In this document: positions 14,397-40,997 of the stretch, in pieces | Numbering within the stretch: the first letter of the stretch is position 1 | Layout of the letters: the number at the start of each line of letters is the position of its first letter | NCBI GenBank assembly: GCA_938016265.1 | Contig: CALLWB010000118.1 | Span: forward strand, 1-62,946 | From: an uncultured Saprospiraceae bacterium | GTDB lineage: Bacteria; Bacteroidota; Bacteroidia; Chitinophagales; Saprospiraceae | Length of the DNA: 62,946 nt | Direction of reading: 5' to 3' | The notes under the pieces: generated by a model | What the model was told of the DNA's origin: nothing | Databases searched by the model: none | What the model saw: the letters and a program-made list of their open reading frames with translations, nothing else | Position numbers and translations under genes: made by a program

Positions 14397-15140
14397 ATGC
14401 CCACTAAAGCATTAAATATAGCAACCGGTAATATCCGTTTGCAACGGGAAAATTCCATTCACACTGCAGCCTGTTGCATAGTAAATGCTTCGTTGAGTGA
14501 TTTGCAAACGCATATAAATGACCTCCACCCTAGAGAATTGGCTACTTACGAAAGCTTCAAATTTGATGCACGAAAAAAGGCATATCTCCTAGGTCGACTT
14601 ACTGCTCGAAAAGCACTTTCCTTGCTAGTTCCTAAAGAAAAACTTTCAACTATTTTTATTGGGAACGGGGTATTTTCTTTTCCTATAGTCGAAGGAGAAA
14701 ACTGCGGACTACAAGTCAGTATTACGCATTGCGAAGATATAGGAATGGCCATGGTCTATCCACAAGCACATCCACTCGGGATTGACTTGGAGCGAATTGA
14801 CGCGAAGCGAAGCAAAACAATGGCGGAACAATTGTCGACCAAGGAAAAGGCGATTATTCGTAAAGCAGGGCTCCCAAAAACCATTGGATATCCCATCTCC
14901 TGGACGATCAAAGAAAGCCTGTCAAAAGTCCTTCGCACCGGCCTCACACTAGACTTCAAGTTTATCGAATTAGCATCCATTATCCGTAAGGGAAACTACT
15001 ACGAAAGCACCTTTGTCAAATTTGGTCAATACAAGGCGGTTTCTTATCATTTTGGAGAATATGTTTGTAGTATCGTGCTACCTAAATTTACCACGCCAGA
15101 TTTGAAGGAACTAGAAGGTGCATTGGATATGCTCAAATAG
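14397..15140 (+). CDS. Sfp-type 4'-phosphopantetheinyl transferase
   Basis: 247 residues. Family motifs in order: GRLTARKAL (66-74), SITHCEDIGMAMV (108-120, the substrate-binding His), PLGIDLE (126-132, with Mg-binding Asp130 and Glu132) and WTIKESLSK (169-177, with Glu173 and Lys177). It moves the phosphopantetheine arm of CoA onto a serine of carrier proteins. The obvious client in the window is Ser2239 of the polyketide synthase at 24954-34550. It starts 52 bp after the Crp/Fnr gene and converges on the epimerase gene, whose end is 8 bp away. Confidence 0.92.
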   Translation: MPTKALNIATGNIRLQRENSIHTAACCIVNASLSDLQTHINDLHPRELATYESFKFDARKKAYLLGRLTARKALSLLVPKEKLSTIFIGNGVFSFPIVEGENCGLQVSITHCEDIGMAMVYPQAHPLGIDLERIDAKRSKTMAEQLSTKEKAIIRKAGLPKTIGYPISWTIKESLSKVLRTGLTLDFKFIELASIIRKGNYYESTFVKFGQYKAVSYHFGEYVCSIVLPKFTTPDLKELEGALDMLK

Positions 15141-16208: not shown

Positions 16209-17393
16209 ATGAAAAAAATAATTCTGGGAATACTCTCAATCTATAAAAAATGGAAGCAGTTTATCCTTCGTTTAAGAGGGAAAACGGAGGCCGACATCCA
16301 TATGGAGCGCGTAGTAAGCGGTAAATCCTGGGAAGAGTTTTGCGACACCCTAAAAGCAGCGGGCAGCTCCATCCTCTATGCCAACCCACCGAAAGACGAA
16401 TTGGCGCAAGCAGAAGCCTACCGATACCTAAGCAGACTTACCCGAGCAGGTTTGGAAGCGTTCGTAGAATTTAATGATCCAGAATTCCCAGTTCTAAAAC
16501 GAATGGTCCACGAAACCGTAAAACTAGGCGCCGACAACCCCGACAACTACTACCAAAACGCCCAAATAACCGGCGACTATGAATATCGAATTACAGGAAA
16601 TAGAAACTCCGTCTTCTACCTCGGTTTCTTCACTCAAAATGGCAGCTATGGGAGCACAGGCGGATTGTCTCCTTGCGGCAGCCTGGAAGCTGCAGACATG
16701 GCAATTGAGGCAGACGGCAGCTTTGAAATCATCCTCAGCAAAACAAAAAAAGGAAAAAACTGGCTAAAAATTGAAGACGAGACGTCCATGCTGATGGTCC
16801 GTCAAACATTCATGGACAGAGAAGCCGAACAAATTGCAGAGATGGAAGTAAAGACCCTCAATGGTCCTGCATTTCCAAGGAGTTTGTCTGCTACTCAAAT
16901 TGATGGTGGATTAGACCTAGCAGGGACATTTGTGGCCGGGGCATCTATGATTTTTGCACGGTGGGCAGACGATTTCAAGAAACACACCAACCAATTGCCG
17001 CAGATGGATCCTGAAAAATCGAATGCGGCTGGCGGAGATAAAAACATTGCGTATTATCATAGTTATTGGGCAATTCAGGAAGATGAGGCCTTGGTCATTG
17101 AAGTCACTCCACCAAACTGCCGATATTGGAATTTCCAACTGAACAATCATTGGATGGAGTCGCTGGACTACCGTTTTCATCAGATCCATGTGAATGCGCA
17201 CACTGCAGTTTTAGAGGCGGACAATTCAGTAAGAGTGGTTGTTGCACACAAAAACCATGGATTCAAAAATTGGATCACAACGACAGGTCATGTGCAAGGG
17301 ACAATGTTGTGGCGTTGGTGGTACGCTAATGAATTTCCAGCACCGAAGTGCTCCTTGGTAAAAATCGAAGATATAATAGCCAACCATGCTTAA
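16209..17393 (+). CDS. DUF1214 domain protein
   Basis: 394 residues. The C-terminal half (about 270-385: YYHSYWAIQEDEALVIEVTPP, YWNFQLNNHWMESLDYRF, VVAHKNHGFKNWITTTGH) is characteristic of DUF1214, a beta-sandwich family of unknown biochemical role found with lipid and steroid-related genes in actinobacteria and proteobacteria. The N-terminus is Lys-rich with a short hydrophobic start but no clear signal peptide. The last 8 bases overlap the start of the sulfotransferase gene (shared ATGCTTAA), a strong sign of cotranscription and translational coupling. Confidence 0.82.
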   Translation: MKKIILGILSIYKKWKQFILRLRGKTEADIHMERVVSGKSWEEFCDTLKAAGSSILYANPPKDELAQAEAYRYLSRLTRAGLEAFVEFNDPEFPVLKRMVHETVKLGADNPDNYYQNAQITGDYEYRITGNRNSVFYLGFFTQNGSYGSTGGLSPCGSLEAADMAIEADGSFEIILSKTKKGKNWLKIEDETSMLMVRQTFMDREAEQIAEMEVKTLNGPAFPRSLSATQIDGGLDLAGTFVAGASMIFARWADDFKKHTNQLPQMDPEKSNAAGGDKNIAYYHSYWAIQEDEALVIEVTPPNCRYWNFQLNNHWMESLDYRFHQIHVNAHTAVLEADNSVRVVVAHKNHGFKNWITTTGHVQGTMLWRWWYANEFPAPKCSLVKIEDIIANHA

Positions 17394-18585
17394 GAACAAC
17401 CGCCCATTCCTAATAAAAGCCTTCAACAGGTTGAATATCCGGGTTCGGCTGGAGGCGGACGACTTGATGCAAACGGCCAAACGCAAAACCGGATTGACAG
17501 ACTTCGGTGAAGCCAATTTGCAGGAACCATTACACCAGTTAATCACTTCTATTCATCAGGATGCAAATCTGCATGCTTTTGGCCAGTTCATCACCAAACA
17601 ACGCCTACTAAATATCCTCCAAAACAGACTTCGAATTGAGCAATGTTTCAAGGACCACCCTGATATTGAAGACATTGAAATTAACTGCCCCATTTTTATA
17701 ACTGGATTGCAGCGAACAGGAACTACTCGATTGCACCGACTGCTCGCTGCGCATCCTGATGTTCGATCACTTACGTCGTGGGAAGCGTTAAACCCCGCAC
17801 CGCTCAACAACGATTCGAACAATCAAAAAAGAATAAACCAAGCCAAAACTGCTGAACGGGCGCTACGTTTTATGTCGCCTGATTTTTTTGCGATCCATCC
17901 GGTGGAGCATGAAGCACCTGAAGAGGATGTGTTGATCAATGACATGACTTTTGTGAGTGCTGTTCCAGAAGCAACAATGCATGTTCCTGGTTATACCGAT
18001 TGGCTGAAAACAGCAGATGGTTTGTGGCCCTATTCTTATTTGAAGAAGGTTTTAAAGCTTTTGTCCTGGCAGCATCCTAACAAAAAGTGGGTGCTTAAAA
18101 CACCACAGCATTTAGAAAACATGGCACCTATTTTTGCTGTTTTTCCAGATGCTAAAGTCATTCACACTTACCGCGATCCGCTTAAGGTAATCCCTTCATT
18201 TTCCAGTATGTTGTATCAAAGTTTTCGGATATTCAGCGATCAGGTAAATGCGGCAGCAATTGCCAATCATTGGTTGCAGAAAGACGCTAAAATGATAGCT
18301 GCAGCCATGGCTTACTGGTCTGGACTTCCTAGTGGAAAAGTACTGGACGTTTCTTACTATTCCATGATGAAAAATCCAGAAAAAGAACTGAAAAAAATCG
18401 TTGGTTTTATGGACTTGGATTGGAATACAAACGCGATGAATTCCATCAATACAATCAATACCCAAAACAAACAACACAAATACGGCAAACATCAATATCA
18501 CTTGGCAGACTTTGGACTCACAAAAGAAACTGTCGAGGCTTTGTTTGTTGATTATAGAAAAAAATATGCTATTCCTTTGGAGTAG
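17386..18585 (+). CDS. Sulfotransferase (Sulfotransfer_3-like)
   Basis: 399 residues. The 5'-phosphosulfate loop is FITGLQRTGTTRLH (104-117). The 3'-phosphate region is HTYRDPLKVIPSFSSM (about 262-277), with the conserved Arg and Ser. The end carries KHQYHLADFGLT. Family members move sulfate from PAPS to a hydroxyl. The same layout, including the C-terminal KHQLADYMLT block, recurs as the last domain of the polyketide synthase at 24954-34550, so the two are close relatives. Translationally coupled to the DUF1214 gene. The acceptor is unknown; a lipid or polyketide alcohol is the natural guess. No PAPS-forming genes are in the window. Confidence 0.88.
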   Translation: MLKNNRPFLIKAFNRLNIRVRLEADDLMQTAKRKTGLTDFGEANLQEPLHQLITSIHQDANLHAFGQFITKQRLLNILQNRLRIEQCFKDHPDIEDIEINCPIFITGLQRTGTTRLHRLLAAHPDVRSLTSWEALNPAPLNNDSNNQKRINQAKTAERALRFMSPDFFAIHPVEHEAPEEDVLINDMTFVSAVPEATMHVPGYTDWLKTADGLWPYSYLKKVLKLLSWQHPNKKWVLKTPQHLENMAPIFAVFPDAKVIHTYRDPLKVIPSFSSMLYQSFRIFSDQVNAAAIANHWLQKDAKMIAAAMAYWSGLPSGKVLDVSYYSMMKNPEKELKKIVGFMDLDWNTNAMNSINTINTQNKQHKYGKHQYHLADFGLTKETVEALFVDYRKKYAIPLE

Positions 18586-18685
18586 TTATTGAGTTACGGA
18601 GTACCAGAGTATATTAAGTTACTGACTGGATTGAGTATTTTGTGAACATTGAGGGACTTAACGACTTATTCAACTTAATTAAAAA

Positions 18686-19651
18686 ATGAGATACAACAAT
18701 CCATTTACAGCTACCATAAACGGGATCTTAGACCTCTTCAAAAAACAAACCCCCATCGGTGAATTGGGCGCCAATGATCGGTTGGATGGCAAAACCTGTC
18801 TGGTGACAGGGGCCAACTCAGGCCTGGGGTTTGCGGTGGCGACCCAACTCGTTCAACGAGGTGCATTTGTCGTGATGGCTTGTCGTGGAGGTATACCTGA
18901 AGCAGGAGAAAAAGTCACAAAAATCACTAGGAGTAATCTATTGAAAATGATTCCTATCGACTTATCGAAAATAGATAGCATTCATCAGTTTATCCAAACT
19001 ATAAAATCAGAAGGATGGCAGTTTGATGTGGCTGTTTTTAATGCTGCAATGGTGCCAAGTGGATCGCAGAAAATGGCCTCTGGATTTGACCAAATGTTTC
19101 TAGTAAATTATCTATCAAAATTTATTCTGGTGAATGGATTGCTTGAAATAAATGCGATTCCAAAACGAAAAACAAACCATGCAAGAATCATTTTTGTTTC
19201 TTCAGAATCCCACCGATCCACCAGTGCAATTGATTTTGAAAAACTAGGCGTTTTTGAGGAGTACAAAATGGGAAAAGTGATTGCACTTTATGGCGACTAC
19301 AAGCTGTTGCTGAATACCTATGCTACTGAATTGTCCAGAAGGCTAAACAACAAACATCTAAATATCAATGTGTTTGCACTTTGCCCTGGCCCAATAAACT
19401 CGAATATTGCAAGGGCAGCACCGAAAGCGGTTGTGCCTATATTAAAGTTGGTTTTCAAATTGTTTTTTAGATCTCCAACCAAGGCTGCGGAGCCCGTTTT
19501 GTATTTAGCCTGCTCTCCCGCTATCAAAAAACGGTCAAGTTTGTACCTGCATTTCATGCAAGAGAAAGCAATGGACGAAAAAGCGTTAGATCCTGAAAAC
19601 GGGAAAAAGCTTTGGGAAAAATCTGTTGAGTTGGTTAAAGGACGTAGCTAA
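18686..19651 (+). CDS. Classical short-chain dehydrogenase/reductase
   Basis: 321 residues. Cofactor motif TGANSGLG (41-48), NAA (119-121), catalytic Ser in VSSES (171-175) and Tyr202-x3-Lys206 (YGDYK) are all in place, so it should be active with NAD(P)H. The overall type (retinol-dehydrogenase or protochlorophyllide-reductase-like, with PGP.NSNIAR after the active site and a C-terminal helix) suggests a hydrophobic alcohol, aldehyde or ketone substrate. It follows the sulfotransferase gene by 100 bp on the same strand. Confidence 0.88.
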   Translation: MRYNNPFTATINGILDLFKKQTPIGELGANDRLDGKTCLVTGANSGLGFAVATQLVQRGAFVVMACRGGIPEAGEKVTKITRSNLLKMIPIDLSKIDSIHQFIQTIKSEGWQFDVAVFNAAMVPSGSQKMASGFDQMFLVNYLSKFILVNGLLEINAIPKRKTNHARIIFVSSESHRSTSAIDFEKLGVFEEYKMGKVIALYGDYKLLLNTYATELSRRLNNKHLNINVFALCPGPINSNIARAAPKAVVPILKLVFKLFFRSPTKAAEPVLYLACSPAIKKRSSLYLHFMQEKAMDEKALDPENGKKLWEKSVELVKGRS

Positions 19652-24953: not shown

Positions 24954-27900
24954 CTAGTGTTGCAAACTGGCCTTCCTAAAAACAATTTCTCTATGCTCTA
25001 CAAATTTCAAGTAAGCAGCAAATGCCTGATCTACATCGGCTTTAGTCAACATATAGTCGGCCAGTTGATGCTTATTTCTTGACTCCTTGCTTCTTTGCTC
25101 GTTTTGCGTATGTACCCACTCTTCCATTTTAGCAGCTTTCTGTTCAGACAGCGGTTTATCCCATTGACCATAAATCGAACGGACCGTCTGCATTGGCTCC
25201 TTGATAAAATCGTAGTAGCTCACATCTATCCAACGGTCTTCCAACTCTGGATGAGCAGTTCTAAAATCGACCGCCTTGGATAACATTTTACTCATAAAGT
25301 CCAACTGCTGTTTTCCAATCTCCTTCTTGGATTGCGGCGTAGCCAAGGTCGCACGCGACTGCTCCACCAGATGATTCCACGAACTCATAAACTCACAAGG
25401 ATCGCGGTGGGTTTGGATAAATAACGCATCAGGATAAACTTCTATCAGTTCTTCCAACGCCATCAAATGAAAAGGCATTTTCAATAGCCATTGATTTCCT
25501 TGATCGGACTGGTGCGTACGTTGCCAGTTGAAATGCTGCATGATTTGATGGTGCATTTTGTAGGCATCCCCGCTACCCTGCTCCTCCAGCCGTCTGCAAT
25601 AAGACGGCAAATTATAGAGAATCGCAGAACTCCAGGAAGAAAATGAATGTTCCAATAGACCAAATTCTTCTTCCGGTGCGTCGATATCTACTTTATGAAT
25701 ACCGCGCAATTGCTCTTCTGCTTCATAGCCAGCTACCAAATCAGCAATGTATGTTCTTCTAGGATCAGCGATCGTTCCTCCTAGACATTTGTAGTCTCCA
25801 CCTGCCATGACTGGCTGCGTAGATTCATACAATTTCAAGGTATTAAACTGCCGATCTTGGGACAATAAATTGTGCATAAATGTGGTACCTGTTCGGTTGA
25901 TTCCTACTATGAATATCGGGCGTTCTATCCGTTGTTCCAATATCGCTGGATGTTGTTTTCTTTCCTTGGCTAATGCTGCCAAATTGTATAGTTTCCGACT
26001 TAAATTGACGGAAGTCATGGAACGTCTTTCTGACAACAATTTCGCTTCGGGTGCATTCAAGGCATTGACCAAAATATCCATAGACTTCAAGACAGGTTTA
26101 GGATAGGCTGCTTCAAAAGAAACGCCACTTTGCTCAGCGAATTCCTTAGCCAATCGTAGTAATATTTCCGTACTGATTACTCCATTTGGTGTGGTGTACT
26201 GCCAGTTTTCACGGTGGCGTTCTATCCATTTGTAGGAACTTGCGCTCATGGCAATTAACCCAGGCCACTCGATTTCGAATGGACAATCTTCCTTGATTGC
26301 CTGATCGGAAACCGGTTGTGCTCCATCCGCCCTGCTTATTCCAAACCATTGCGGCGCGAAATAATCTACTAGTGTCCAGTAGCCGTCAAGTGGCGATTTC
26401 TCTCCTTCCTCCATACAAGCTTGCTTGAAATCTGCATAGGATACTTCCTCTAGATCAATCCCAAATTCTAAAAAGCTCAGATCATGGCTTACCGGTTTCG
26501 GATTGCAGCATTGATAGATGGTATTTTTTCTATTTTCATTTAATGAAATCGCGGTACAAAAATTACTAATGGTATCAACAGGCTCTGTCCATCGGAGTTT
26601 CAGATTTTTGCATTTTTTGCCGATACTCAAGGCAGACAATGCAATCCGTACCTTGACATCATTGATCTGCGTATATCCGGTCTCCGCCGCCATCCCTGTA
26701 ACAGGCAATCTAAAAATAGCAATGGGCAATCCAGCAGATTTAGCAAAAAACAAACTTTGCTCTACCACCAATTTCGACCAGGGATATCCTACAAAACCTA
26801 GGGGGAATTTTCGTTTCATTTCCTCCAGATCCGGCTGTGCCTGATGGCTGATACTTTTATCCATGTATTCTCCTCCAAACTGGCTAAAATATTGCGGGAA
26901 TATTCCAAGTGTCGATGCGTAAAAAAGGTGCTTCATTCGTTTAGCAAAACAAAGTTCAAAGATATTTTGCATGCTGAGTGTATTGACTTTCCTAATAGTT
27001 CTATAAGGAGAAGCAAGCGTCAAATCTGCTGCAAAATGGTACACGGCATCCATCTGCTCGCTTAATTGGTCAAAATCGGTTGGAGTCAGTCCAAATTGAG
27101 GTTGCCCCATATCTCCAACTACTGGATGGATTCGATCTGCAAATTGGTCTTCCCATATCTCGGCTAGTTCGAGGGCGGCTTGCAGTCGTTCTTTTCCATG
27201 GGTGGCGTCTGTTGCTCTTACTAGGCAATGCACCTGAACCTCCTTGTGCTGTGTCAATAGATCCCGGAGTATAAATCGGCCAATGAAACCTGTTGCTCCG
27301 GTAATAAACACCTGCTTAAACGCGGTAGGCGAAATAGCTGGCTTGATCGGGTCAGTGCTTATATTATCTCGAATAAAAGCTCTTAATGTATTGATGTCCG
27401 TCTGGCAATCAGGAGGCAACGTGCCACTAAGTTTTTCTGGCTGAACGACCTCCTTTAGTTTTCCTGGGTGAACTGTGCCGTTTTTAGCTGTTGATTTAGA
27501 AGATACGCTTACTGCGAATGGTTCTTTTTCTGGTAGTTGGCCATTTCCATTTTGAAGGCCGTTTGTAGGAACAAGGGGATATTCAAAATGGTCCTCATAT
27601 TTATTCGCAAAAACAGACGGAATTCGTTTTGCTTTTGGCAATAGCACTTCCTCTTCGAGGGTTATTTGTTCTGTTTGATCTTCTTCCGAGCTTTCCGCCT
27701 CACTTGATTGGGTATGTCTGTTGATAATGCTGTCTACAAGAGTTGCCGTCGTTGCTTTAGTCATCAAATCGATAATACTGACTTGATAATTAAATTGAGA
27801 ATTTACAAAAGCAGACAATTCTGAAACTGAAATCGAATTTAGTCCAAAACTAGCAAATGGTTCGTGGATATCAATCTCTTCGTGGCCGCACAACTCAGAT

Positions 27901-30900
27901 ACTTTTGCTACGATTTGCGCCGTGATTCCTTCCGGAGTAATTTGACCTCCGCCGCCAATACTAAAACAGTCCTGATTGTTCATCAACGATCCAAAACGCA
28001 TATAATCGGGATGATCCAACGTCCACGGAATTCGCTTGAACAATGCAGTTATTAAATGCGTTTCATTTTTCATTTGACGCAAGGCATAATCCAAACCACT
28101 AAAGGCAAACAAAGCACTAATGGCTGGCATTCCACCAGCTTTCGCAATCCGTAAAACATGCGCATCCCTCGAAGCCATACCTGCTTCAGCAACCGCTCCC
28201 ATATTGAATGCTAATCCTGGCAAACCGTTTTGTTTACGGTAAGCCATCAGTCCATCCAAAAAGGCATTCGCAGCGCAATAATTCAACTGTCCAGGCGATC
28301 CAAATGCAGAGGCTACAGAAGAAGAAACGACAAAGTAGTCAAGGGCTGAATGCTGAGTTGCTTCATGCAAATACCAGGCACCATTCGCTTTTGCAGCAAA
28401 TACCTTTTTGAACGAAGCAGGAGTTAGATTCTCCAGCAACTGATCATCAAGCGTTCCTGCTAAATGGAATACTCCTTTCAAAGGTCTCTGTAAGTCATTT
28501 ATACATCGGACAACATCTTCCTCCTTAGAAGCATCTCCTTGTAAAATTTGAACTTCCACCTCAGGAAACATTCCACCGATACCGCAATTTTGACGCACCC
28601 ATTCCACTGATCGTTTTCTTTGCGAATCACGATCCATTAAGGTGATATGCTTCGCTCCTGAAGCGGCAAGATAAGACAATAAACGAAGGCCAAACCCTCC
28701 AAACGCGCCTGTTACAAGGTAAGTGGCTGTTGGATCGAAGAAGGCTCTTTTATCTGCTACCTTAGTAGCGGTACACACCTCTTCTTTCGGCATTTCAAGA
28801 ATCAATTTCCCTTGATGCTCTCCATTCATCATACTACGCAAAGCCACCGGATAGTCTTTCAGTGCGTATGTAGTAATCGGCAATGGAGGAAGAATCTCTT
28901 CCGAAATTAAATCTAAACATGATTTGGAAATTTCCTGACTTAAAGCAGGATCATCCATCATCAACCGATCCACATCTATCGCTATAAATCGTAAGTTTTT
29001 TCGGAAGACACACAGATTGATGGCGTGATCGGCATAAATATCCACTTTTCCTATTTCACAATGCCAGCCACCTGGTTTTAACGCCTCCAAACATAAGTTA
29101 ATGTGATGCCCAGCAAGCGAATTTAAAACCACATCTACACCTTCTCCATTCGTTGCTTCCATCAAATCGTCGTACCAAGAGAAACTATGCGAATCGAAGG
29201 CGGCTGTCGCACCTAAGGCTAGCAGCTTTTCTCGTTTTTCAACACTTCCGGCGGTAGCGTAAATCTCTGCTCCGATGTGCTTCGCCAAGGCAATTGCTGC
29301 CTGACCAACGCCTCCCATTGCGGAGTGAATCAAGAACTTTTGTCCTTTCTTCAACCTGGAAAGTTCTACCAGAGCATAGTACGCCGTTACATAGACCGAC
29401 ATCACACCAGCCGCTTCTGACTGAGTAAGATTCGAAGGTTTCAAGAAGGTGGCGCGTGCATCGGTGACGATTCGGTTGGCAATGCAGCCACCTTTCATAA
29501 ATACGACTTCTTCTCCAATTTTTCTGTTTTGTACTGCGGAGCCTACTTTGACGATCGTCCCGCTGGCTTCCATTCCGACTTCATGTCCGAGGGCAGATCG
29601 TTCGAAGGACAACAAGGGCAATTTCCCAAGGGCGACCATGATGTCTCTGAAGTTTAGGGCAGCCGCTGACACCTCAATCTCAACGTCATTTGCTCCTAGC
29701 TCAGGCAAGTCATATGTCTTTAATTGCAGGCCGGTTATTTGTCCAGGGTTGTCTATGAATAGACGGTATGGTATAACTTTTTCGCTTGTGATCAGCGGAA
29801 ATTCATCTTGTAGACTTAGTACTCTTGGTACGTAGATTTTTTCATTCCGGATGGCGATTTCTTTTTCACGGATATCGTTTCGGTATAGCCATTGTAAGGT
29901 GTTTAAATCTGTAATTTCTCCTAGGTCGATCAAGCGGAATTCCAGCCCGAGTTCTGCCGGTATTTCAAGCGTCAGACTTCGCACTGCACCACAGAATGTG
30001 CTGCTAGCAGGATCTTTCACTTGGTAAGCTGCATTCTTTGTTATTACATTTAATCTGCAAGGAGGAAGTTGATTTTCTGTTCGACATGCCACCAGTTCTT
30101 TTACAAAACCCGCAAATTTAGCAACCGCATATTCTCCGGTAACATCTGATTGATCTACCTCGACGAAGAAATCAATACTGGTAATTTCATCTGCATTTTC
30201 CAATTCAGAGATACAATATTTTTTTGAATTGGTGATAATAGATTGGCCTTCTAATTTGTTGGCCCATTCCTGAGAAAGGTCAGAATTATTCCCAATTATC
30301 CAATGGGCAGAATTTTCAGTATTTTCATCGACATATTCCATTTCAAATGGAATTTGTATTAATGTTGAATTTGGATTTGATCTAAGCTTAGACCAGCCTT
30401 CAGGAATAGTCAACGCACAATCTCCCTCGTGAAGCACAAGGAGCATTCCTCCAGGTATTAACAGTTTCCCAGCTTCTCGCCATTGGATTAAACTGGGTTG
30501 AAACTCTTTATAGTTAATCAATAAAACGTCTGCGCCTGCTATTCGGAGCAGCCCTTTGCTCAAATCAGTTTCTTCTGAATCATAAATGTCGTAATTTGCA
30601 AACCTGACGGCAGTTTCTATGTGATTGAAGGTTTCATAATGCTTTTTTGTCCCCTCGTCGATAGAGCAGCATAACCAGTATTCCGAAGAAGTTTTGTTTT
30701 CATTGAATGGTTTGATGCACTCTTTGAGCACTGTCTGATTTGGATCTTCCGTATCGGTGAGCTCTATTATTCTGCAAGCATATTGCTGGTGGTCATTTCT
30801 TTGTTCAAGAGCATTGATAAGATCGATGGCAGCAATTTCACCTGCTGGAATTTTTTGCTCGATGTTTTCCCCAGTATCAATAAATTTAGGTTGCCAATTG

Positions 30901-33900
30901 AGCAGTTTTTTGCTGCTGATCAGATCGCCTCTTTTTGAATTGGCGTGGAAACTGCTGTATTGTCCTAAATGGGCAACTAATGCTCCTGTATTTTTATCAT
31001 ATAGTGTAATGCTGCCACAATTGCGCTCTCCAAGTTCTAGCACCAACTGGCCTTTTTCATGCATATTGGACCAAGCAGGCGGAGGACAGAAATGACACGT
31101 TAGATGACCAGAAGTTGGTGCAGAAAACATGGTAAAATTTTCCGCCTGCATCGGGATTCCCGAGATATCAGTAACGTCCATCAAAAAATAGATAAACGAC
31201 TGCAACGCCCCGTCCATGAGTGAAGGAGGCAACATATAGCCCGCGTCCTTACTTTCTTGAAAGAACGCTTCTTCCATCTTCAAATCCAATAAAATCTCCT
31301 TGGTTTCTCTATTAATATCAATAGAATTTACTGCTTGAAAATACGGCCCGTATTGGAAATAATCTCCTAGCACTGCCTCCATGTGCGTATAAAAATCTGA
31401 AGCAGTTCTAAATCGTGTAGGAACAAATTTTTCTTTAATTGGACCAGCTATTCCTTGTTTAATTTTGCTGGCGTGTTCTTGATTGATTAAGCGGACTTTC
31501 CCTTCGCAATGTAGCGTTGGCTCTTGCTCTGAATTGTAGGCTTTGGAAACGATTTTGAAGGAATAGTTGTGCTTAGTTCCCTGGATTAGGGTCAATTCAG
31601 TTTTCAACAGTACAGGGGTATCTCCAATCACACAAGGGTTTCGGAATTTCAGGTGATCAAAATGGGCGGGTTGGTTGCCTAAAGCCTGTAAGACAATTTC
31701 AATATAACCAGCAGCAGGGACAATCGACATTTGCTGCACTTTGTGATCCGTCAACCAAGGAAAATCTTTGGCAGACATGCGTACCTCAAAAATCAAATTG
31801 TCAGTTGCAGATTGTTTACCGACCAACGGGCCAGTGCTGTACTGACTATTTTTCAAAAAGTGGGTATCGTCAATTAGGATATCCATCGTCGGTTGTTCTT
31901 CCTTGGTGTGTCCTGGCAGAAGATCAGTGATTGGCCTCGGACGAGGATACTGTGCTTCAAAATCCAGAGTTACTCCATGCTGAAACAGCTTTCCTAGGGA
32001 TTGGTAAAAACTAATAGAGGTGTCTGTTTTTCGTTTTAATGTACTTATACAAACAGGCATCTCCTTGCTTTGCTCGAAGCATTGTTGAATGATTGGTGTC
32101 AATGCATGATGAGGAGCAACTTCAAGTATGATCGTAGGTTTTATTGCCCGTTCAGCAGCTTTAATCGCTTCATAAAACTGTACCGGTTTCCGAATATTCG
32201 ACCACCAATACTGGCTATCTAACCTACTCGTCACCTTTCCGGTAACGGAAGAAATAAATGGAATATTCGCCTCAAATGCGCCTTCATCCAAAAACGTCAG
32301 ACTATCAATCAGGTCCTCTTTTATTTCGTTCATTGCGCTGGAGTGAAAGGCAATATTCCCAGCTAATAATTTTTTCTGATAGTTTCGCTTTGTCAGTTCC
32401 TCGACTATTGGATCGAGATTTTGCTGCGTGCCGCAAATTACTACACTTGCCGGTGCATTGACGCATGCAATTTCGACCTGGGCCTGATCTCCTGAAAAAG
32501 GAATCTCTAATTCATTCAGGAAGTCTTCTACCCCATTCAAATCTAAAGCAATCGCCAACATCCGCCCAGAGCCAGCCGTCCGCTGCTGCAACTTTGCGCG
32601 GTGGAAAACCAATCTAGATGCATCTTCCAGGGAAAGCGCACCACTCGCATAGGCCGCTGCCATCTCCCCGGCGCTATGACCAATAACTCCATCCGCATAA
32701 ACGCCCCAGGTTTTAAGCGTTTCGACCAGGGCGCATTGAATCATGAAAATAGCGGGTTGCGCCAACTCACATTCGTTTAGTTCTTCTTGGCTAGCATTAA
32801 AACAGGCATCCCTCAAAGAGCTGGAAGAGTAGCGTTTCCAGTATCCTTCGATCGCATCGATCGTCTTTTTGAATACAGGGTTGGTAGCATACAATTCTTT
32901 TGCACATCCTGCCCATTGTGTTCCTTGTCCCGAAAACACCATTAATATTCGGTCGTCTTTTTGGCCGGATAACTGGTTTAGGTTTTCTTTTACATCAAAC
33001 TCCTGAAGTGTGTCAAGCAGACCTTGTTGATCTTTAGCAACCAAGGCAGATCGTATTCCAAAATGTGTTCGGCGAAGGCTGAGGTTTGATGCTAGATCGT
33101 AGGGATCTATTGTATTTTCTGATAAAACTGTTTTTAATTCTTTTACATAATTTTCAAGTGCTTCAGTACTACGAGCGGAGATTGGGAATAATAATCCAGC
33201 ACCTTCTACCAATGGTTTTGAATACTGAGTGGAGGCATTGGGTTGATATTCTTCAATAATACAAATGCCATTTGCTCCTCCAAACCCGAAGGAATTAATC
33301 CCGATGACTACTGGTTCTTCGGGGAATGCTTCACAAGTAGTTTGGACTTTCATATTCAGTCCTGCGAAGTCGATTTCGGGGTTTCCAATTTTGTAGTTTT
33401 CTGATATTGGCGCAAATGTTCTGCGCTGGATCATTAATATGATCTTCAATAAAGAGCAATGGAAAGCTGCTGCTTCCATATGTCCTAGATTACTTTTAAC
33501 TCCTGCCACTCGCAGGGGATTCTTTCGGTCATATCCGCCGAATACTTCTCCTATTGCATTTCCTTCAATTCGGTCTCCTAGTTTAGTCCCTGTGGCGTGT
33601 GCTTCAATGTAAGAAAACTGCTGGGGCTCGATGCCTACCCGTTCGCAGGCTTGTTGCATGAGGTCTATTTGTGCATGAGGAGTTGGCGCGGTGATGTATC
33701 TTCCCTGGATCAAATCGGTGGTTCCTTCAGCGGCACCTGCTGTATTTAATAAGGTTTCAGAAATGACTGCGTGGATTTTGTCGCCATCTCTTTCTGCAGC
33801 AGCTACCGGCTTCAATACAAAGGTAAATACCCCTTCCGAACGCATATAGCCATTAGCATTGGCGTCGAAGGAATGACATTTGCCGTCTGGGCTAATGACT

Positions 33901-34550
33901 CCAAGCGATCCAAACCCCGTACTGGCAAGGTAAGACCCCAGGTAATTGGAGGAGCCTACTACTGCCTGCTCACAATCTCCGCACTGGAGGGAGTTCATCG
34001 CAGAATGCAGTGCACTGATACCTGACGAACAGGCGGTCAATGTGGTTGTAGACGGCCCCATCAAATTGAAATGATAGGAGATTCTGTTGGCAAACATCGA
34101 GAGGCTACTCCCAGGAATGGTGAACTCGTTTGCTCCTAGTGGAGATCTCCAGTTACAGGCGGCCGATATTTGCGTACCGACGAATACTCCGGTGTTGCTG
34201 TTGCGCAGTTTGTGCATGTCCCATCCTGCATGTTCGAAGGCATCCCAGGTACTGCTGAGTAGCAGTTTGATTTGTGGATCCATTTGTTCTGCTTCGTAAG
34301 GGGACATTCCGAATAGTTTGCAGTCAAAATTGAGTTCTTCACCGTCCAGCATTAATCCTTCAAATTTGTTGGCAAATCGTCCAGGGCCGGGGTTTCCTGC
34401 AAATGGTTCATAGCCTTCACCGTAACGGTCTTTTACTGGGCATTGGATTACTTTACGTTGACTTAGGAGTTCCCAATAGTCATTATCATTGTGGATACCT
34501 CCCGGCATTCGGTAGCCGTATCCTACGATAGCGATATTTTTACGCGCCAT
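24954..34550 (-). CDS. Reducing polyketide synthase KS-AT-DH-psiKR-ER-KR-ACP-thioester reductase-sulfotransferase
   Basis: 3198 residues, one complete FAS-like module plus two release or tailoring domains. KS: Cys174 (TACSSG), His318 (EAHATGT), His357 (NLGHMEA). AT: GQGTQWAG at 541, Ser626 (GHSAGE), with IAFH at 733-736 resembling the malonyl-type HAFH. DH: His936 (DHKVQQMSIVP) and Asp1113 (LPPSLMDGALQ). A structural psiKR lies at about 1215-1590; no methyltransferase motif. ER: about 1600-1920 (SAMGGVGQ at 1743). KR: TGAFGGFG at 1947, LDD at 2034-2036 (B-type), Tyr2091, Asn2095. ACP: Ser2239 (GLNSI). A 130-residue acidic, low-complexity linker follows. Reductase: GATGFIG at 2418, Tyr2589-x3-Lys2593. 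Sulfotransferase: GINRTGTT at 2883, THRD at 3047. All active residues are present, so it should make a saturated chain, release it reductively and may sulfate it. The product is not predictable. Confidence 0.95.
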   Translation of the reverse strand: MARKNIAIVGYGYRMPGGIHNDNDYWELLSQRKVIQCPVKDRYGEGYEPFAGNPGPGRFANKFEGLMLDGEELNFDCKLFGMSPYEAEQMDPQIKLLLSSTWDAFEHAGWDMHKLRNSNTGVFVGTQISAACNWRSPLGANEFTIPGSSLSMFANRISYHFNLMGPSTTTLTACSSGISALHSAMNSLQCGDCEQAVVGSSNYLGSYLASTGFGSLGVISPDGKCHSFDANANGYMRSEGVFTFVLKPVAAAERDGDKIHAVISETLLNTAGAAEGTTDLIQGRYITAPTPHAQIDLMQQACERVGIEPQQFSYIEAHATGTKLGDRIEGNAIGEVFGGYDRKNPLRVAGVKSNLGHMEAAAFHCSLLKIILMIQRRTFAPISENYKIGNPEIDFAGLNMKVQTTCEAFPEEPVVIGINSFGFGGANGICIIEEYQPNASTQYSKPLVEGAGLLFPISARSTEALENYVKELKTVLSENTIDPYDLASNLSLRRTHFGIRSALVAKDQQGLLDTLQEFDVKENLNQLSGQKDDRILMVFSGQGTQWAGCAKELYATNPVFKKTIDAIEGYWKRYSSSSLRDACFNASQEELNECELAQPAIFMIQCALVETLKTWGVYADGVIGHSAGEMAAAYASGALSLEDASRLVFHRAKLQQRTAGSGRMLAIALDLNGVEDFLNELEIPFSGDQAQVEIACVNAPASVVICGTQQNLDPIVEELTKRNYQKKLLAGNIAFHSSAMNEIKEDLIDSLTFLDEGAFEANIPFISSVTGKVTSRLDSQYWWSNIRKPVQFYEAIKAAERAIKPTIILEVAPHHALTPIIQQCFEQSKEMPVCISTLKRKTDTSISFYQSLGKLFQHGVTLDFEAQYPRPRPITDLLPGHTKEEQPTMDILIDDTHFLKNSQYSTGPLVGKQSATDNLIFEVRMSAKDFPWLTDHKVQQMSIVPAAGYIEIVLQALGNQPAHFDHLKFRNPCVIGDTPVLLKTELTLIQGTKHNYSFKIVSKAYNSEQEPTLHCEGKVRLINQEHASKIKQGIAGPIKEKFVPTRFRTASDFYTHMEAVLGDYFQYGPYFQAVNSIDINRETKEILLDLKMEEAFFQESKDAGYMLPPSLMDGALQSFIYFLMDVTDISGIPMQAENFTMFSAPTSGHLTCHFCPPPAWSNMHEKGQLVLELGERNCGSITLYDKNTGALVAHLGQYSSFHANSKRGDLISSKKLLNWQPKFIDTGENIEQKIPAGEIAAIDLINALEQRNDHQQYACRIIELTDTEDPNQTVLKECIKPFNENKTSSEYWLCCSIDEGTKKHYETFNHIETAVRFANYDIYDSEETDLSKGLLRIAGADVLLINYKEFQPSLIQWREAGKLLIPGGMLLVLHEGDCALTIPEGWSKLRSNPNSTLIQIPFEMEYVDENTENSAHWIIGNNSDLSQEWANKLEGQSIITNSKKYCISELENADEITSIDFFVEVDQSDVTGEYAVAKFAGFVKELVACRTENQLPPCRLNVITKNAAYQVKDPASSTFCGAVRSLTLEIPAELGLEFRLIDLGEITDLNTLQWLYRNDIREKEIAIRNEKIYVPRVLSLQDEFPLITSEKVIPYRLFIDNPGQITGLQLKTYDLPELGANDVEIEVSAAALNFRDIMVALGKLPLLSFERSALGHEVGMEASGTIVKVGSAVQNRKIGEEVVFMKGGCIANRIVTDARATFLKPSNLTQSEAAGVMSVYVTAYYALVELSRLKKGQKFLIHSAMGGVGQAAIALAKHIGAEIYATAGSVEKREKLLALGATAAFDSHSFSWYDDLMEATNGEGVDVVLNSLAGHHINLCLEALKPGGWHCEIGKVDIYADHAINLCVFRKNLRFIAIDVDRLMMDDPALSQEISKSCLDLISEEILPPLPITTYALKDYPVALRSMMNGEHQGKLILEMPKEEVCTATKVADKRAFFDPTATYLVTGAFGGFGLRLLSYLAASGAKHITLMDRDSQRKRSVEWVRQNCGIGGMFPEVEVQILQGDASKEEDVVRCINDLQRPLKGVFHLAGTLDDQLLENLTPASFKKVFAAKANGAWYLHEATQHSALDYFVVSSSVASAFGSPGQLNYCAANAFLDGLMAYRKQNGLPGLAFNMGAVAEAGMASRDAHVLRIAKAGGMPAISALFAFSGLDYALRQMKNETHLITALFKRIPWTLDHPDYMRFGSLMNNQDCFSIGGGGQITPEGITAQIVAKVSELCGHEEIDIHEPFASFGLNSISVSELSAFVNSQFNYQVSIIDLMTKATTATLVDSIINRHTQSSEAESSEEDQTEQITLEEEVLLPKAKRIPSVFANKYEDHFEYPLVPTNGLQNGNGQLPEKEPFAVSVSSKSTAKNGTVHPGKLKEVVQPEKLSGTLPPDCQTDINTLRAFIRDNISTDPIKPAISPTAFKQVFITGATGFIGRFILRDLLTQHKEVQVHCLVRATDATHGKERLQAALELAEIWEDQFADRIHPVVGDMGQPQFGLTPTDFDQLSEQMDAVYHFAADLTLASPYRTIRKVNTLSMQNIFELCFAKRMKHLFYASTLGIFPQYFSQFGGEYMDKSISHQAQPDLEEMKRKFPLGFVGYPWSKLVVEQSLFFAKSAGLPIAIFRLPVTGMAAETGYTQINDVKVRIALSALSIGKKCKNLKLRWTEPVDTISNFCTAISLNENRKNTIYQCCNPKPVSHDLSFLEFGIDLEEVSYADFKQACMEEGEKSPLDGYWTLVDYFAPQWFGISRADGAQPVSDQAIKEDCPFEIEWPGLIAMSASSYKWIERHRENWQYTTPNGVISTEILLRLAKEFAEQSGVSFEAAYPKPVLKSMDILVNALNAPEAKLLSERRSMTSVNLSRKLYNLAALAKERKQHPAILEQRIERPIFIVGINRTGTTFMHNLLSQDRQFNTLKLYESTQPVMAGGDYKCLGGTIADPRRTYIADLVAGYEAEEQLRGIHKVDIDAPEEEFGLLEHSFSSWSSAILYNLPSYCRRLEEQGSGDAYKMHHQIMQHFNWQRTHQSDQGNQWLLKMPFHLMALEELIEVYPDALFIQTHRDPCEFMSSWNHLVEQSRATLATPQSKKEIGKQQLDFMSKMLSKAVDFRTAHPELEDRWIDVSYYDFIKEPMQTVRSIYGQWDKPLSEQKAAKMEEWVHTQNEQRSKESRNKHQLADYMLTKADVDQAFAAYLKFVEHREIVFRKASLQH

Positions 34551-34997: not shown

Positions 34998-37178
34998 TTA
35001 TTTATCTTCCAGGCGTTTTTTGAGTTGTTCGTTTTCTTTGGTAAGGGCTTCCATTTTTTTATCCATTTCGATAAGATGAAGCATGATTTGTTCTATCTTT
35101 TCCTGTTGTCGGATGGTTACTTCTCCAAGAGTGAGATTGTCTCCCATTTCTGCTTCAGATTCAAAGCCAGACAAGTGTCCCTTTAGTTTTATGTATTCTT
35201 CCTCTTGTTGGAGCGTTGGCATTTTGTATTCTGGTTTGAATACGTAGTCTGGCCAGTTGACTAATTCTACTACGATTTCTTTAGATCGGACTTTCCCATT
35301 TACGGATAGCTTGTCTGTGGGGTTTGTGGTGCCGATACCAATATTGCCATTGTCCAAAATGCTCATTTTTGGTGCTGTGTTGTTTCCAGCATATAGACCT
35401 GTGATGTTGGCGGAGCTCGTTCTTTTTATCATCCATTTCGTTTCGTTGTCCATCAGTCCAAACACAGTACCATTTGACTGCCCAATAACCCGACCATACA
35501 CTTCATTTTCTTTATCTCTATAAATCATTTGGGAAGAAGTAGAATGATTGCTATCCCAATATAAAGCTGTACTTGCATCACCTAACAGTCTCTGTACAGC
35601 TCCAAGATAAACACTACCTGAGTTTACTCTTATGTTGCCTTGGACATGAAGCTTCTGTGTAGGAACTGTCGTTCCAATTCCTAGGTTTCCATCATTGGTC
35701 AACCGCATTCTTTCGGTGTCGCTAAGTCGGAATGAAATGTTATTGTTATAATCATTTAGCAGGAAATATTTAGCGTCTTTATCCATCAAACCGAAGTACT
35801 GCCCATTCCCCGAACCGATCAGCCGACCATATATACTTCCTTCTAAATCCCTCATCAAAAATTGAGAAACGGTAGAGTGATTACCATAAAATTGAAGGGA
35901 GGATGCTTTGTCACCATAGAGTTTTTGGATACCTCCGAAAAAATAATTCCCGGTTTCTGATCTTACATTTCCATTGACATGTAGTTTTTCCTGAGGGACG
36001 GCGTTACCTATTCCTACATTTCCAGTTTCTCTGATAGTTAATGTTGTACTTGTTGTCCCTCCGCTAGGCGTAAATCGAAAATCAAAGCGGTTGGCATTGT
36101 CTGCAAGATCCCATTTGTCACCACTGTTCTCCAAAAACTGTAGACTTGGATAGTCGTTTGTTTTTTGGATCACAATTCCTGCTCCGCCATTATATTTTAC
36201 ATTTAGGGGAGCTAGTGGAGTGGTTGTTCCTATCCCTACTTTGGAAGTTGTGTTGTAGACGACTCCAGTACCTTCCGTCCAATCTCCATCATTTATGGAA
36301 GAAGCTGGCTGCCAAGTGGCATTTCCGGTAGCGTCTGAGATTAGTACATCACCGGCGGTTGCGCCTGTTGTTACTTGTAGTCCTGTTGCTTTAATTTTCC
36401 CAACGACCTCTAGTTTTTCTGTTGGATTGCCAGTTCCAACTCCTAAGTTGCCAGCCACTGTCAATCTCATTTTTTCGAGGTTGTTGAATTTGAAAGCGAT
36501 GTAGTCATTGTAAGCGTTCAGCAAAAAATATTTTGAATCTTTGTCCATCAATCCAAAGTACGCTCCGTCTGAAGAGCCATTCAGTCTACCGTATATAGTA
36601 CCTTCTAAATCTCTCAAAATTAACTGGGTGGATGTTGAATGATTAGAATAAAATTGAAAAGAGGAGGCGCCATCACCATATAGCCGTTGGACGCCGCCGA
36701 AATAGAAATTTCTAAGATCTGATCTTACATTTCCATTTACATGCAATTTTTGCGCTGGCGTTAGTGTACCAATCCCTAAAGAACCGTTATCAAGTATTCT
36801 CATATGCTCTGTCCCTCCAGTCGATAGACTTAAATAAGTATCTAGCTGGGATCGTAGAACAAAGTTATCGTTTGCATCTCTTATACCGAAATAATCTCCA
36901 TCATACGCACCGTAAAATCCGAAATAATTTACGTCATCGCTATCTCTAAATTTCAATTGAGTTACATTGGCATTATTTGCATTTAGGTAGAAGGTTGCTC
37001 CACCATTGCCGTATAAATTTTGGAGGGAACTAAAGAAAAGTCGCTTCCCATCGGTTCGGATATCTCCAATTACATGAAGCTCCTTTTGAGGAGTGGCTGT
37101 TCCGATACCTACATTTTGTGCGGTTACAGAAAATGCAATCAATAAAACAAGTACAATTAACAGGCAATTCTTTATCAT
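34998..37178 (-). CDS. Secreted tail-fibre-like repeat protein with C-terminal coiled coil
   Basis: 726 residues. Signal peptide at 1-20, then NVGIGTATPQKELHVIGDIRTDG, the usual start of Bacteroidota fibre-like proteins. Four units of about 100-130 residues follow, each with a VGIGT.P..KLHV.G.. strand, YFGG.Q.LYGD, NHST..Q...RD.EG..YGR..GS..G.YFGLMD and .ERMRL... The C-terminal tail (VNWPDYVFKPEYKMPTL..., about 620-650) resembles the stalk end of the protein at 887, but ends in a long Lys/Glu coiled coil (about 675-726). Probably a trimeric surface fibre. It lies just upstream of the synthase on the same strand, 447 bp away. Confidence 0.82.
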   Translation of the reverse strand: MIKNCLLIVLVLLIAFSVTAQNVGIGTATPQKELHVIGDIRTDGKRLFFSSLQNLYGNGGATFYLNANNANVTQLKFRDSDDVNYFGFYGAYDGDYFGIRDANDNFVLRSQLDTYLSLSTGGTEHMRILDNGSLGIGTLTPAQKLHVNGNVRSDLRNFYFGGVQRLYGDGASSFQFYSNHSTSTQLILRDLEGTIYGRLNGSSDGAYFGLMDKDSKYFLLNAYNDYIAFKFNNLEKMRLTVAGNLGVGTGNPTEKLEVVGKIKATGLQVTTGATAGDVLISDATGNATWQPASSINDGDWTEGTGVVYNTTSKVGIGTTTPLAPLNVKYNGGAGIVIQKTNDYPSLQFLENSGDKWDLADNANRFDFRFTPSGGTTSTTLTIRETGNVGIGNAVPQEKLHVNGNVRSETGNYFFGGIQKLYGDKASSLQFYGNHSTVSQFLMRDLEGSIYGRLIGSGNGQYFGLMDKDAKYFLLNDYNNNISFRLSDTERMRLTNDGNLGIGTTVPTQKLHVQGNIRVNSGSVYLGAVQRLLGDASTALYWDSNHSTSSQMIYRDKENEVYGRVIGQSNGTVFGLMDNETKWMIKRTSSANITGLYAGNNTAPKMSILDNGNIGIGTTNPTDKLSVNGKVRSKEIVVELVNWPDYVFKPEYKMPTLQQEEEYIKLKGHLSGFESEAEMGDNLTLGEVTIRQQEKIEQIMLHLIEMDKKMEALTKENEQLKKRLEDK

Positions 37179-38666: not shown

Positions 38667-40997
38667 CTACAATTGCTTGTTCAAAGCAATCGGTGCACCA
38701 ATACTCTGTTCTGGAATAGCAAATGCGTCCGTCAAATACCTGGCGTCCTTCCGTAGCGTCAAACACAATCGCTCGATCGTCTTACGAATAGCTTTCGTTT
38801 TTGAGGGTTTCAAATACCCCTGTTCCAAGTACCAATCGAAGTGTTTTTGCATTTGCCAAAGTCCGTACAAATCGCTGATGTCATTGAGGACTCTTTTTAG
38901 TTTAGGATCTTCACAGGATTCCATTTTTTTAATGGATTGTTCCAGGATAATTCGCTCGGCATATGCTTCTGCCAATTCAACCATGTGCACTTGACACCGC
39001 AAGAAAATATCGTAGGACTCCATTTTTCTTTTTCGGTATCCTTGCATTCTTGAGGCGACTGCTCTTAGGATTTCTCCTTCTCTATGACGGAAGGCTTTTA
39101 GTTGAAATTCGGAACTGGTCAGGTGCTCTTCGTTGGTAATCCGTTCTTCACCCAGGACAGAGATAGACTCCCGCATGCCTTTGGTGACTAGTTTTATGAT
39201 ACCCCAGAAATTGGCATTGTCAAATTCTTCCTTCATTTCCGTTAGCAGGCCTTTTGCTACTAGCTGCATGAGCACTGTATTGTCCCCTTCAAAAGTAGTG
39301 TAGATATCGGTATCCGCTTTTAGGTCTGCAAATCGGTTTTCAGCCAGATAGCCTTTGCCTCCACATGCCTCCCTGCAGGCTTGTAAGGTAGCGGTAGTGT
39401 GCCAGGTAGCAAATGACTTCATAGCGGCAGCCATGGTTTCTATTTCTCTTGAGTCTTCTTCCGTTTTGTTGGTAAATCGCTCCGTCAGATACTTTAGGGC
39501 AAAATCGGTTGCATAAGTGGTTGCCAGATGCGGGATTAATCGTCGTTGATGCGTTGGGTAATCGAGTAATAAGGTTTCTGGTTCATTTTCAGGGCCGAAC
39601 TGCCTTCTGTTTAGGGCGTGTCGGATAGCGATGGTGAGGCCTGTTTTGGCTGCGCTCAATCCTGCCTGTGGTACGCATACTCTTCCTCCAACCAATGTTC
39701 CAAGCATGGTAAAAAATCGTCTTGACTCTTTTTCTATTGGACTCGAATAAGTGCCGTCTGCAGCAACTGAACCAAATTTATCCAACAAGTTTTCCCTAGG
39801 GACTCTTACTTGATCAAACCAAATTTGTCCATTATCTACCCCATTTAGTCCTAGCTTATATCCACAATCCTCTACTCGGATACCAGGCAAATGTTCTCCA
39901 TCTTCATCTTTCAGGGGCACTATGAAGGCATGAACACCATGGCCTTCTCCCTTTGTGTGGAGTTGCGCAAAAACGGAAGCAGTGTATCCATGAAGGGAAT
40001 TGCCGATGTACTCTTTTCTCGCCATATTATGAGGCGTATTGATGACGAATTCTTCAGTTTCTGGATCATAGATGGCGGTGGTCTCACAATCTCTAACGTT
40101 GGAGCCATGTCCGGTTTCCGTCATGGCGAAGCAACCGGAAAGTTCTAGGGTCCCTATATCTTTCAAGTACTTATCATGGTGTTTTTTTGTTCCGAGTTGC
40201 TGGACACTTCCCCCAAACAAACCAAACTGCACACCAAACTTAATCGCCAGACTCCCATCATGGTATCCTAGTGTTTCGAATACTGCTGCGTATTGGGAAA
40301 TATCGTTTTTTCCTCCATATTCTTCCCCGTAGGCCAACGCTCCTAATCCCTGTTTTGCAAGCAACTGACACCAATGCATAATCCGCAATCTAAATTTTTC
40401 TTTATCCCGGATAGTTACAAGTTCGAAGGCGGGGTCAGAAAGTAGCAGTCTGACTTTCTCTTTCAGTTCGTGGTGTTTGCCATCCAGGAGACGAGTCATT
40501 TTTTGCACATCAAAACTAGCTGCTTGCTCTGTGGTAGTTTGTTGTTCCTTTATCTGTTCTTCACTTAGCAGATTTCGGAAGTCTTTTATGGTCAGGTAGC
40601 CTAGTGCACCTTCGACGTCTTCGAGTGCTTGTCGAGCTTCCTTAGTGGACCATCTGTGTGCTTGTGAACTTGCTCCGGTATTTGCCATTTGCAAACCCAG
40701 ATCTACCATAGATTGTTTATTGCAATCATCCAGATTGGTGGAGGTAGACCGAATCACATCTACCCAACTTTGAAACAGTTCTTCTGAAGGTGGATTTGCG
40801 GGATTACTCCATTCATTGATGATTTGTTTTTCATTTGGCGTTAGCCAATCCATTTTATCAATCTGATTTCTGATCAGTTTGACTTCACTCGGACTCAGTA
40901 CAGCATCTGCCCAGCCTACATACAATAAGGGTAGGAAAGTCAGTACTCCAGGGGCTTCTTCGGAAATATTATCAAGGGATAATGAGGTGGTTTGCAT
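38667..40997 (-). CDS. Acyl-CoA oxidase/dehydrogenase with TerB-like N-terminal domain
   Basis: 776 residues. Residues 22-110 look like a TerB-type helical domain (LLYVGWADAVLSPSEVKLI...). The enzyme core from about 150 is of the acyl-CoA oxidase type: FAMTETGHGSN (290-300), NGVDNGQIWFDQVRVPRENLL (385-405), RRQFGP (464-469), EACGGKGY (543-550) and FEGDN (569-573), whose Glu570 corresponds to the catalytic base. It oxidises acyl-CoA to the 2-enoyl form with FAD, using oxygen or an electron-transfer protein. No signal peptide. The pairing of TerB-like and ACOX domains is unusual to me. Its place near the synthase allows a role in making or recycling acyl chains (inference). Confidence 0.9.
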   Translation of the reverse strand: MQTTSLSLDNISEEAPGVLTFLPLLYVGWADAVLSPSEVKLIRNQIDKMDWLTPNEKQIINEWSNPANPPSEELFQSWVDVIRSTSTNLDDCNKQSMVDLGLQMANTGASSQAHRWSTKEARQALEDVEGALGYLTIKDFRNLLSEEQIKEQQTTTEQAASFDVQKMTRLLDGKHHELKEKVRLLLSDPAFELVTIRDKEKFRLRIMHWCQLLAKQGLGALAYGEEYGGKNDISQYAAVFETLGYHDGSLAIKFGVQFGLFGGSVQQLGTKKHHDKYLKDIGTLELSGCFAMTETGHGSNVRDCETTAIYDPETEEFVINTPHNMARKEYIGNSLHGYTASVFAQLHTKGEGHGVHAFIVPLKDEDGEHLPGIRVEDCGYKLGLNGVDNGQIWFDQVRVPRENLLDKFGSVAADGTYSSPIEKESRRFFTMLGTLVGGRVCVPQAGLSAAKTGLTIAIRHALNRRQFGPENEPETLLLDYPTHQRRLIPHLATTYATDFALKYLTERFTNKTEEDSREIETMAAAMKSFATWHTTATLQACREACGGKGYLAENRFADLKADTDIYTTFEGDNTVLMQLVAKGLLTEMKEEFDNANFWGIIKLVTKGMRESISVLGEERITNEEHLTSSEFQLKAFRHREGEILRAVASRMQGYRKRKMESYDIFLRCQVHMVELAEAYAERIILEQSIKKMESCEDPKLKRVLNDISDLYGLWQMQKHFDWYLEQGYLKPSKTKAIRKTIERLCLTLRKDARYLTDAFAIPEQSIGAPIALNKQL

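Follow-up and report, generated by a model that had tools for sequence, protein, structure and literature searches.

The analysed stretch of DNA, hereafter the window, covers 62,946 nucleotides of the contig CALLWB010000118.1 from an uncultured Saprospiraceae bacterium. The open reading frame at 24954-34550 of the minus strand starts with ATG, contains no internal stops and encodes a polyketide synthase (PKS) of 3198 aa. The Pfam order of the chain was determined to be ketosynthase (KS; ketoacyl-synt), acyltransferase (AT), dehydratase (DH), enoylreductase (ER; ADH_N/ADH_zinc_N), ketoreductase (KR), acyl carrier protein (ACP), NAD_binding_4 and Sulfotransfer_3 (PF13469), the E values of the last two being 5.5e-50 and 2.1e-34, respectively. 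Pfam and NCBIfam agree on the order KS, AT, DH, ER, KR, ACP, thioester reductase (TR) and PF13469 sulfotransferase (ST). Together, the Pfam domains and the single open frame confirm the domain order in one 3198-residue chain that the original prediction had proposed. Judged by its domains and motifs, the synthase is a member of the swf family ("sponge widespread fatty acid synthase") and of a kind already known. The features referred to below are the following:

24954..34550, minus strand: predicted fused SwfA-SwfB synthase (P0001), 3198 aa, assigned by the single open frame, the domains and the swf motifs
33060..34541, minus strand: KS, aa 4-497, Pfam, with the DPQIK and HATGT motifs
31983..32939, minus strand: AT, aa 538-856, Pfam, with FSGQGTQW, QCALVET, GHSAGE and IAFH
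31092..31820, minus strand: DH, aa 911-1153, Pfam and catalytic residues
29751..30968, minus strand: pre-ER region, aa 1195-1600, the last ~100 residues structural-KR-like (E 5.9e-5 over ~90 residues)
28797..29696, minus strand: ER, aa 1619-1918, Pfam
28185..28727, minus strand: KR, aa 1942-2122, Pfam, with the LDD motif
27732..27917, minus strand: ACP, aa 2212-2273, Pfam, with Ser2239
27435..27731, minus strand: linker between the SwfA and SwfB parts, about aa 2274-2372; the SwfB of genome G263 aligns from aa 2374 on
26394..27314, minus strand: TR, aa 2413-2719, Pfam/NCBIfam, with the solved relatives MxaA 4u7w and 8v1x
24957..26183, minus strand: ST, aa ~2790-3198 (PF13469 core aa 2878-3131), Pfam and solved relatives
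14397..15140, plus strand: phosphopantetheinyl transferase (PPTase) that probably activates the ACP, separated from the synthase by 9.8 kb and four other genes
16209-19651, plus strand: DUF1214 protein, second PF13469 sulfotransferase and SDR in a row
38667-40997, minus strand: 776-aa protein resembling acyl-CoA oxidases, located 4 kb beyond the synthase
34998-37178 and 45496-48696, both minus strand: large ORFs of 726 and 1066 aa, respectively, with no Pfam match at E 0.001

The catalytic residues of KS (Cys174/His318/His357), AT (Ser626/His736), DH (His936/Asp1113) and KR (Ser2078/Tyr2091/Asn2095) are kept, as is Ser2239 of the ACP. The KR also contains LDD, the mark of B-type KRs. These five domains thus have their active residues, with a departure at one position of the DH motif: it reads HxxxQxxxxP versus the canonical HxxxGxxxxP, and the motif is variable in other swf chains too. 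The structural KR which had been placed ahead of the ER was weakly supported. About 90 residues were similar to solved KR-containing PKS proteins in a search with a 27-row profile (E 5.9e-5); the ~300 residues preceding them matched no solved structure by sequence. A degenerate methyltransferase suspected by eye before the structural KR was rejected, being without sequence support.

According to the available text of the 2013 description of the family (Della Sala 2013, PMC3908369), SwfA consists of KS-AT-DH-ER-KR-ACP, SwfB of TR and ST, and SwfC is a radical SAM protein. By Pfam, the synthase has the single KS-AT-DH-ER-KR-ACP module of SwfA, and its TR is followed directly by the ST as in SwfB. 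The KS carries the swf motif DPQ[I/V] (for DPQQR) as DPQIK, aa 91-95, and HATGT (for HGTGT) at aa 318-322. The SwfA motifs were checked in 52 chains of at least 2200 aa, and HATGT was found in 51 of them; the exception, an antisense ORF of locus L109, is no PKS. In the AT, FSGQGTQW and IAFH (aa 733-736) are present and the signature QCALVEL, the last residue of which is variable, occurs as QCALVET (aa 605-611). The AT reads GHSAGE in all three fused chains and GHSSGE in 48/52 chains, the latter being described in 2013, though not as a signature (PMC3908369). The ST grouped with the SwfB STs in a 51-row quick tree (36 of the 67 available swf rows and 15 stand-alone STs), for which the program warned of long branches. 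The three fused STs formed one clade (support 99) placed among the SwfB STs via forks of 91 and 82; the separation of the swf STs from the 15 stand-alone STs had a support of 81, below the 95 level. The novelty implied by the original prediction was not supported, as a PKS plus TR-ST was described in 2013 (available text of PMC3908369) and is widespread in sponge-type MAGs.

The distribution of TR-ST was studied with a five-row TR-ST alignment against one genome per species, in a scan built on two short peptide patterns by which distant members can be missed. The scan resulted in 83 confirmed stretches, 80 of which were kept, corresponding to 79 distinct loci: 75 with a whole or partial TR-ST and four (L110-L113) with the ST only. 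Leaving out five partial and the four ST-only loci, 70/79 spans were translated and 65 were open. Among the groups given in the record titles are Acidobacteriota, Gemmatimonadota, Latescibacterota, Nitrospirota, Alpha- and Gammaproteobacteria, Caldilineaceae, Rhodothermales and others, and the bins named SB066x, RHO, IRC, COS and CO36 are presumably sponge MAG series. Clusters resembling swf are described from Nitrospirota, Latescibacterota and Acidobacteriota in the partly available PMC9426513, and the likewise partly available PMC4245539 doubts a Poribacteria origin. Swf is one of two PKS groups reported to be widespread in sponge microbiomes.

Most of the 75 loci have one neighbour gene with SwfA domains and another with a B12 radical SAM protein. 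The gene orders were A-C-B (27), A-B-C (17), A-B (11, two fused loci included), C-B (7), B alone (7), C-A-B (4), B-A-C (1) and A and C on the other strand (1). Where the two genes are separate, a 4-base overlap of swfA with swfB is frequent (8 of the 21 close pairs counted), so that little is needed for a fusion. At L088 (1197-8160, Rhodothermaceae, genome G353), three consecutive ORFs that overlap by 4 bases make up SwfA and two ORFs make up SwfC; these are either real splits or assembly errors.

With the own genome counted in each case, a TR-ST match was detected in 2/398 Saprospiraceae genomes, both of one genus, and in 1/395 genomes at the class level (both at E 1e-60), as well as in 5/395 at the phylum level (E 1e-40). 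Ten of the 100 nearest relatives matched at E 1e-30, the whole TR-ST being covered only in the own genome (G000) and in G002. Matches were also found in 83 plasmid records, none of which covered 80% of TR-ST in one place.

SwfA and SwfB occur as a single polypeptide of 3179 to 3198 aa at three loci: the window, L035 of G002, which is a Saprospiraceae MAG of the same genus, and L036 (JADCRZ010000017.1, genome G490). The open frame of the window shows that the two are here encoded as one predicted polypeptide, in which about 100 linker residues precede the retained start of SwfB. Among the remaining 73 of the 75 loci, some of them cut by contig ends or frame-broken, no one-chain form was seen. 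The G002 chain, from another species of the genus, is 75% identical to that of the window over the full length; given this ortholog, the one-chain form is unlikely to be an artefact of assembly.

The genome of L036 is a MAG filed as "Williamsia" (Actinomycetota), and by the available text of PMC8103880 it originates from the plastic fabric of a tent that had been left in the Panama jungle for 14 months. The genome contains 88 type IX sorting domains, which 0/14 control genomes have, and its sampled GC is 0.46-0.51, near 0.49. A TR-ST match was found around it in 1/244 genomes of the family and 2/396 of the order, the own genome counted, and the order-level search gave one genome whose coordinates and ORF length come close to those of G002. 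The "Williamsia" name is therefore probably wrong and the genome a misnamed Bacteroidota; the name had raised the idea of a transfer between Bacteroidota and Actinomycetota, which was rejected on the sorting domains, the GC and the order-level match. The plastic fabric also indicates that sponge symbionts are not the only carriers of swf genes. The novelty lies in a compact branch of one-chain synthases in Bacteroidota that has no SwfC nearby and at least one carrier outside sponges.

No swfC was found beside the fused gene at any of the three loci. With the SwfC query at E 1e-10, no match was obtained in the own genome (100% complete) or G002 (96%); a 30% relative was detected on another contig of G490 and a 26% relative in G001. 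As one of the three founding clusters, PSA11D7, also lacks swfC (PMC3908369, available text), swfC is not a swf requirement, and the gene-order counts indicate that the absence of a nearby swfC is not peculiar to the fused form. As no SwfC-type B12 radical SAM protein was detected in the own genome, the methylation step that has been proposed for SwfC is expected to be lacking here. In the accessible part of a 2022 paper (PMC9864124), SwfA is said to serve methyl-branched fatty acids, the 2013 work being cited.

A PPTase gene was located within 10 kb in 3/3 fused loci and directly adjoins the synthase in L035 and L036. An HMM built from the three PPTases gave weak matches in 2/73 other loci (L096, 1.5e-10; L044, 7.6e-5). 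In PMC3908369, as far as available, the ACP of SwfA was loaded by co-expressed Svp and stayed apo in E. coli without Svp, the E. coli ACPS not loading it, so a dedicated PPTase would make sense. By its linkage, the nearby-encoded PPTase would arm the ACP of the synthase.

From the domain set and the single module, malonyl-CoA extension is expected to be iterative and to result in a mostly saturated fatty acyl-ACP. The terminal TR would use NAD(P)H to release this chain, two successive reductions to a fatty alcohol being the most likely course. The TR motifs GATGFIG and Y2589/K2593 are kept, and the best-scoring solved relatives in the profile search were MxaA 4u7w and the type I PKS entry 8v1x; MxaA-type TRs perform the four-electron reduction to the alcohol. 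Carboxylic acid reductases, which are of the two-electron type and yield the aldehyde, were also among the profile matches. The TR could accordingly stop at the aldehyde, leaving its reduction to another enzyme and the sulfation of that alcohol, or of another molecule in trans, to the ST. This course appears rather improbable, since MxaA and the TR of a type I PKS are two solved relatives with top scores, and since TR and ST are contiguous wherever both could be read, broken frames excepted, which suggests a direct handover.

After release as the alcohol, the adjoining ST would transfer sulfate from PAPS to the new primary hydroxyl, giving an alkyl sulfate. The ST loops GINRTGTT and HRDPCEFMSS aligned without gaps with the solved 2zq5 and 2z6v, which bear in the library only the name "putative uncharacterized protein" and which we take to be mycobacterial sulfotransferases. 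By sequence, both presumed PAPS loops look intact. The synthase ST was not among the matches of a Pfam Sulfotransfer_1 search of the own genome. An APS kinase gene for PAPS supply was found in 4/4 swf genomes, yet also in 11/14 control genomes. The reduction and subsequent O-sulfation guessed in the original prediction are reasonable, and the 2013 authors had already proposed a primary sulphate by the same release and sulfation scheme for SwfB (PMC3908369, available text). For the beta-activated product, which the original prediction gave as a second outcome, the evidence speaks neither for nor against.

The sulfate might instead serve as a leaving group. Iterative PKSs can skip reductions, and the ST could then sulfate a kept beta or internal hydroxyl to yield an alkene or a ring, while the TR frees an aldehyde or alcohol. 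The curacin precedent was discussed for SwfB in the accessible part of PMC3908369; however, the decarboxylative route would have to proceed without a thioesterase domain in the synthase, the ST is positioned after the TR, and, as DH, ER and KR are all present with intact residues, few hydroxyls are likely to be kept on the chain. A leaving-group role is thus considered unlikely, and sulfation of the released alcohol is preferred.

The neighbouring genes were examined for further pathway members. G263 carries the DUF1214-ST-SDR set too, at a distance of about 8 kb from its swfB. The DUF1214 gene is present in 5/7 genomes tested: it is absent from G002 and G490, both with fused swf, and present in G001, G034 and G078, where no full TR-ST was found. 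Due to this distribution the set was rejected as a part of the pathway, and it looks like a separate conserved set. The other neighbours (acyl-CoA oxidase, epimerase, unknown ORFs) were rejected as pathway genes, being unmatched in the 40 kb of G002 examined; matched there were the PPTase, the cNMP-binding protein (33%) and three large ORFs located elsewhere in the window. PF13469 enzymes are broad and mostly uncharacterised, which would allow the sulfate acceptor to be a head group or another lipid, with the fatty chain only an intermediate of a larger molecule. Against this, only swfA, swfB and swfC recur around the 75 loci among the query genes tested, beyond which further genes could recur as well, and the nearby DUF1214 gene is missing from both other fused-swf genomes, so an acceptor of this kind is very improbable.

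Taken as a whole, the route of a swf-type one-chain synthase via a reduced fatty chain and an alcohol to an alkyl sulfate is regarded as probable with moderate confidence; the distance of 9.8 kb to the PPTase in the window and GHSAGE versus the usual GHSSGE weigh against it, as does the methyl-branched role given to SwfA in PMC9864124. It is more tentatively suggested that one Bacteroidota polypeptide with only a PPTase may constitute a self-contained synthase of alkyl sulfates, i.e. natural detergent lipids, also outside sponges. Should alkyl sulfates be the product, the standard saponification and methylation analysis would, according to the 2013 authors, miss this class of lipids (PMC3908369). 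In the available text of the same work, the split three-gene cluster gave no new compound in E. coli BAP1, which likewise weighs against the route, and the role of SwfA was called unknown. The natural one-gene swf with a linked PPTase gene and without SwfC offers a simpler system for finding the product. A known product of the same architecture, which would have counted against the original prediction, did not turn up; in the open-licence PMC literature, no paper giving a swf product and none on a bacterial one-chain PKS-TR-ST was found.

CurM (curacin) and the cyanobacterial Ols also contain a PKS-embedded ST, but there the ST is followed by a final thioesterase and the product is a terminal alkene. 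In the synthase the order is TR-ST and, by Pfam, no thioesterase domain follows, so the contrast with CurM drawn in the original prediction holds. A PKS on the Planktothrix agardhii plasmid NZ_LR882953.1 (L129, 4247-11764), KS-AT-KR-DH-ACP-thioesterase-ST, has a terminal PF13469 ST 31% identical to that of the synthase; unlike in the synthase, the thioesterase replaces the TR and no ER match was obtained. Downstream of the plasmid PKS lie genes for an iron alcohol dehydrogenase and for a dioxygenase of the PhyH type. A coccidian type I FAS with contiguous R-ST is mentioned in the available text of PMC3908369, and the reductase domain of Cryptosporidium FAS1 uses C20-C26 acyl-CoA (PMC2995488, available text). 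By these descriptions, both resemble the synthase as large single chains with a terminal reductase, in the coccidian case with contiguous R-ST, and differ from it in being multimodular and eukaryotic. The closest likeness in kind is to the swf cluster as described in the accessible part of PMC3908369, with which the synthase shares the domain order, the SwfA motifs, the TR-ST pair and the one module, whereas here these are predicted to lie in one chain, in Bacteroidota, with a PPTase gene near and no swfC nearby.
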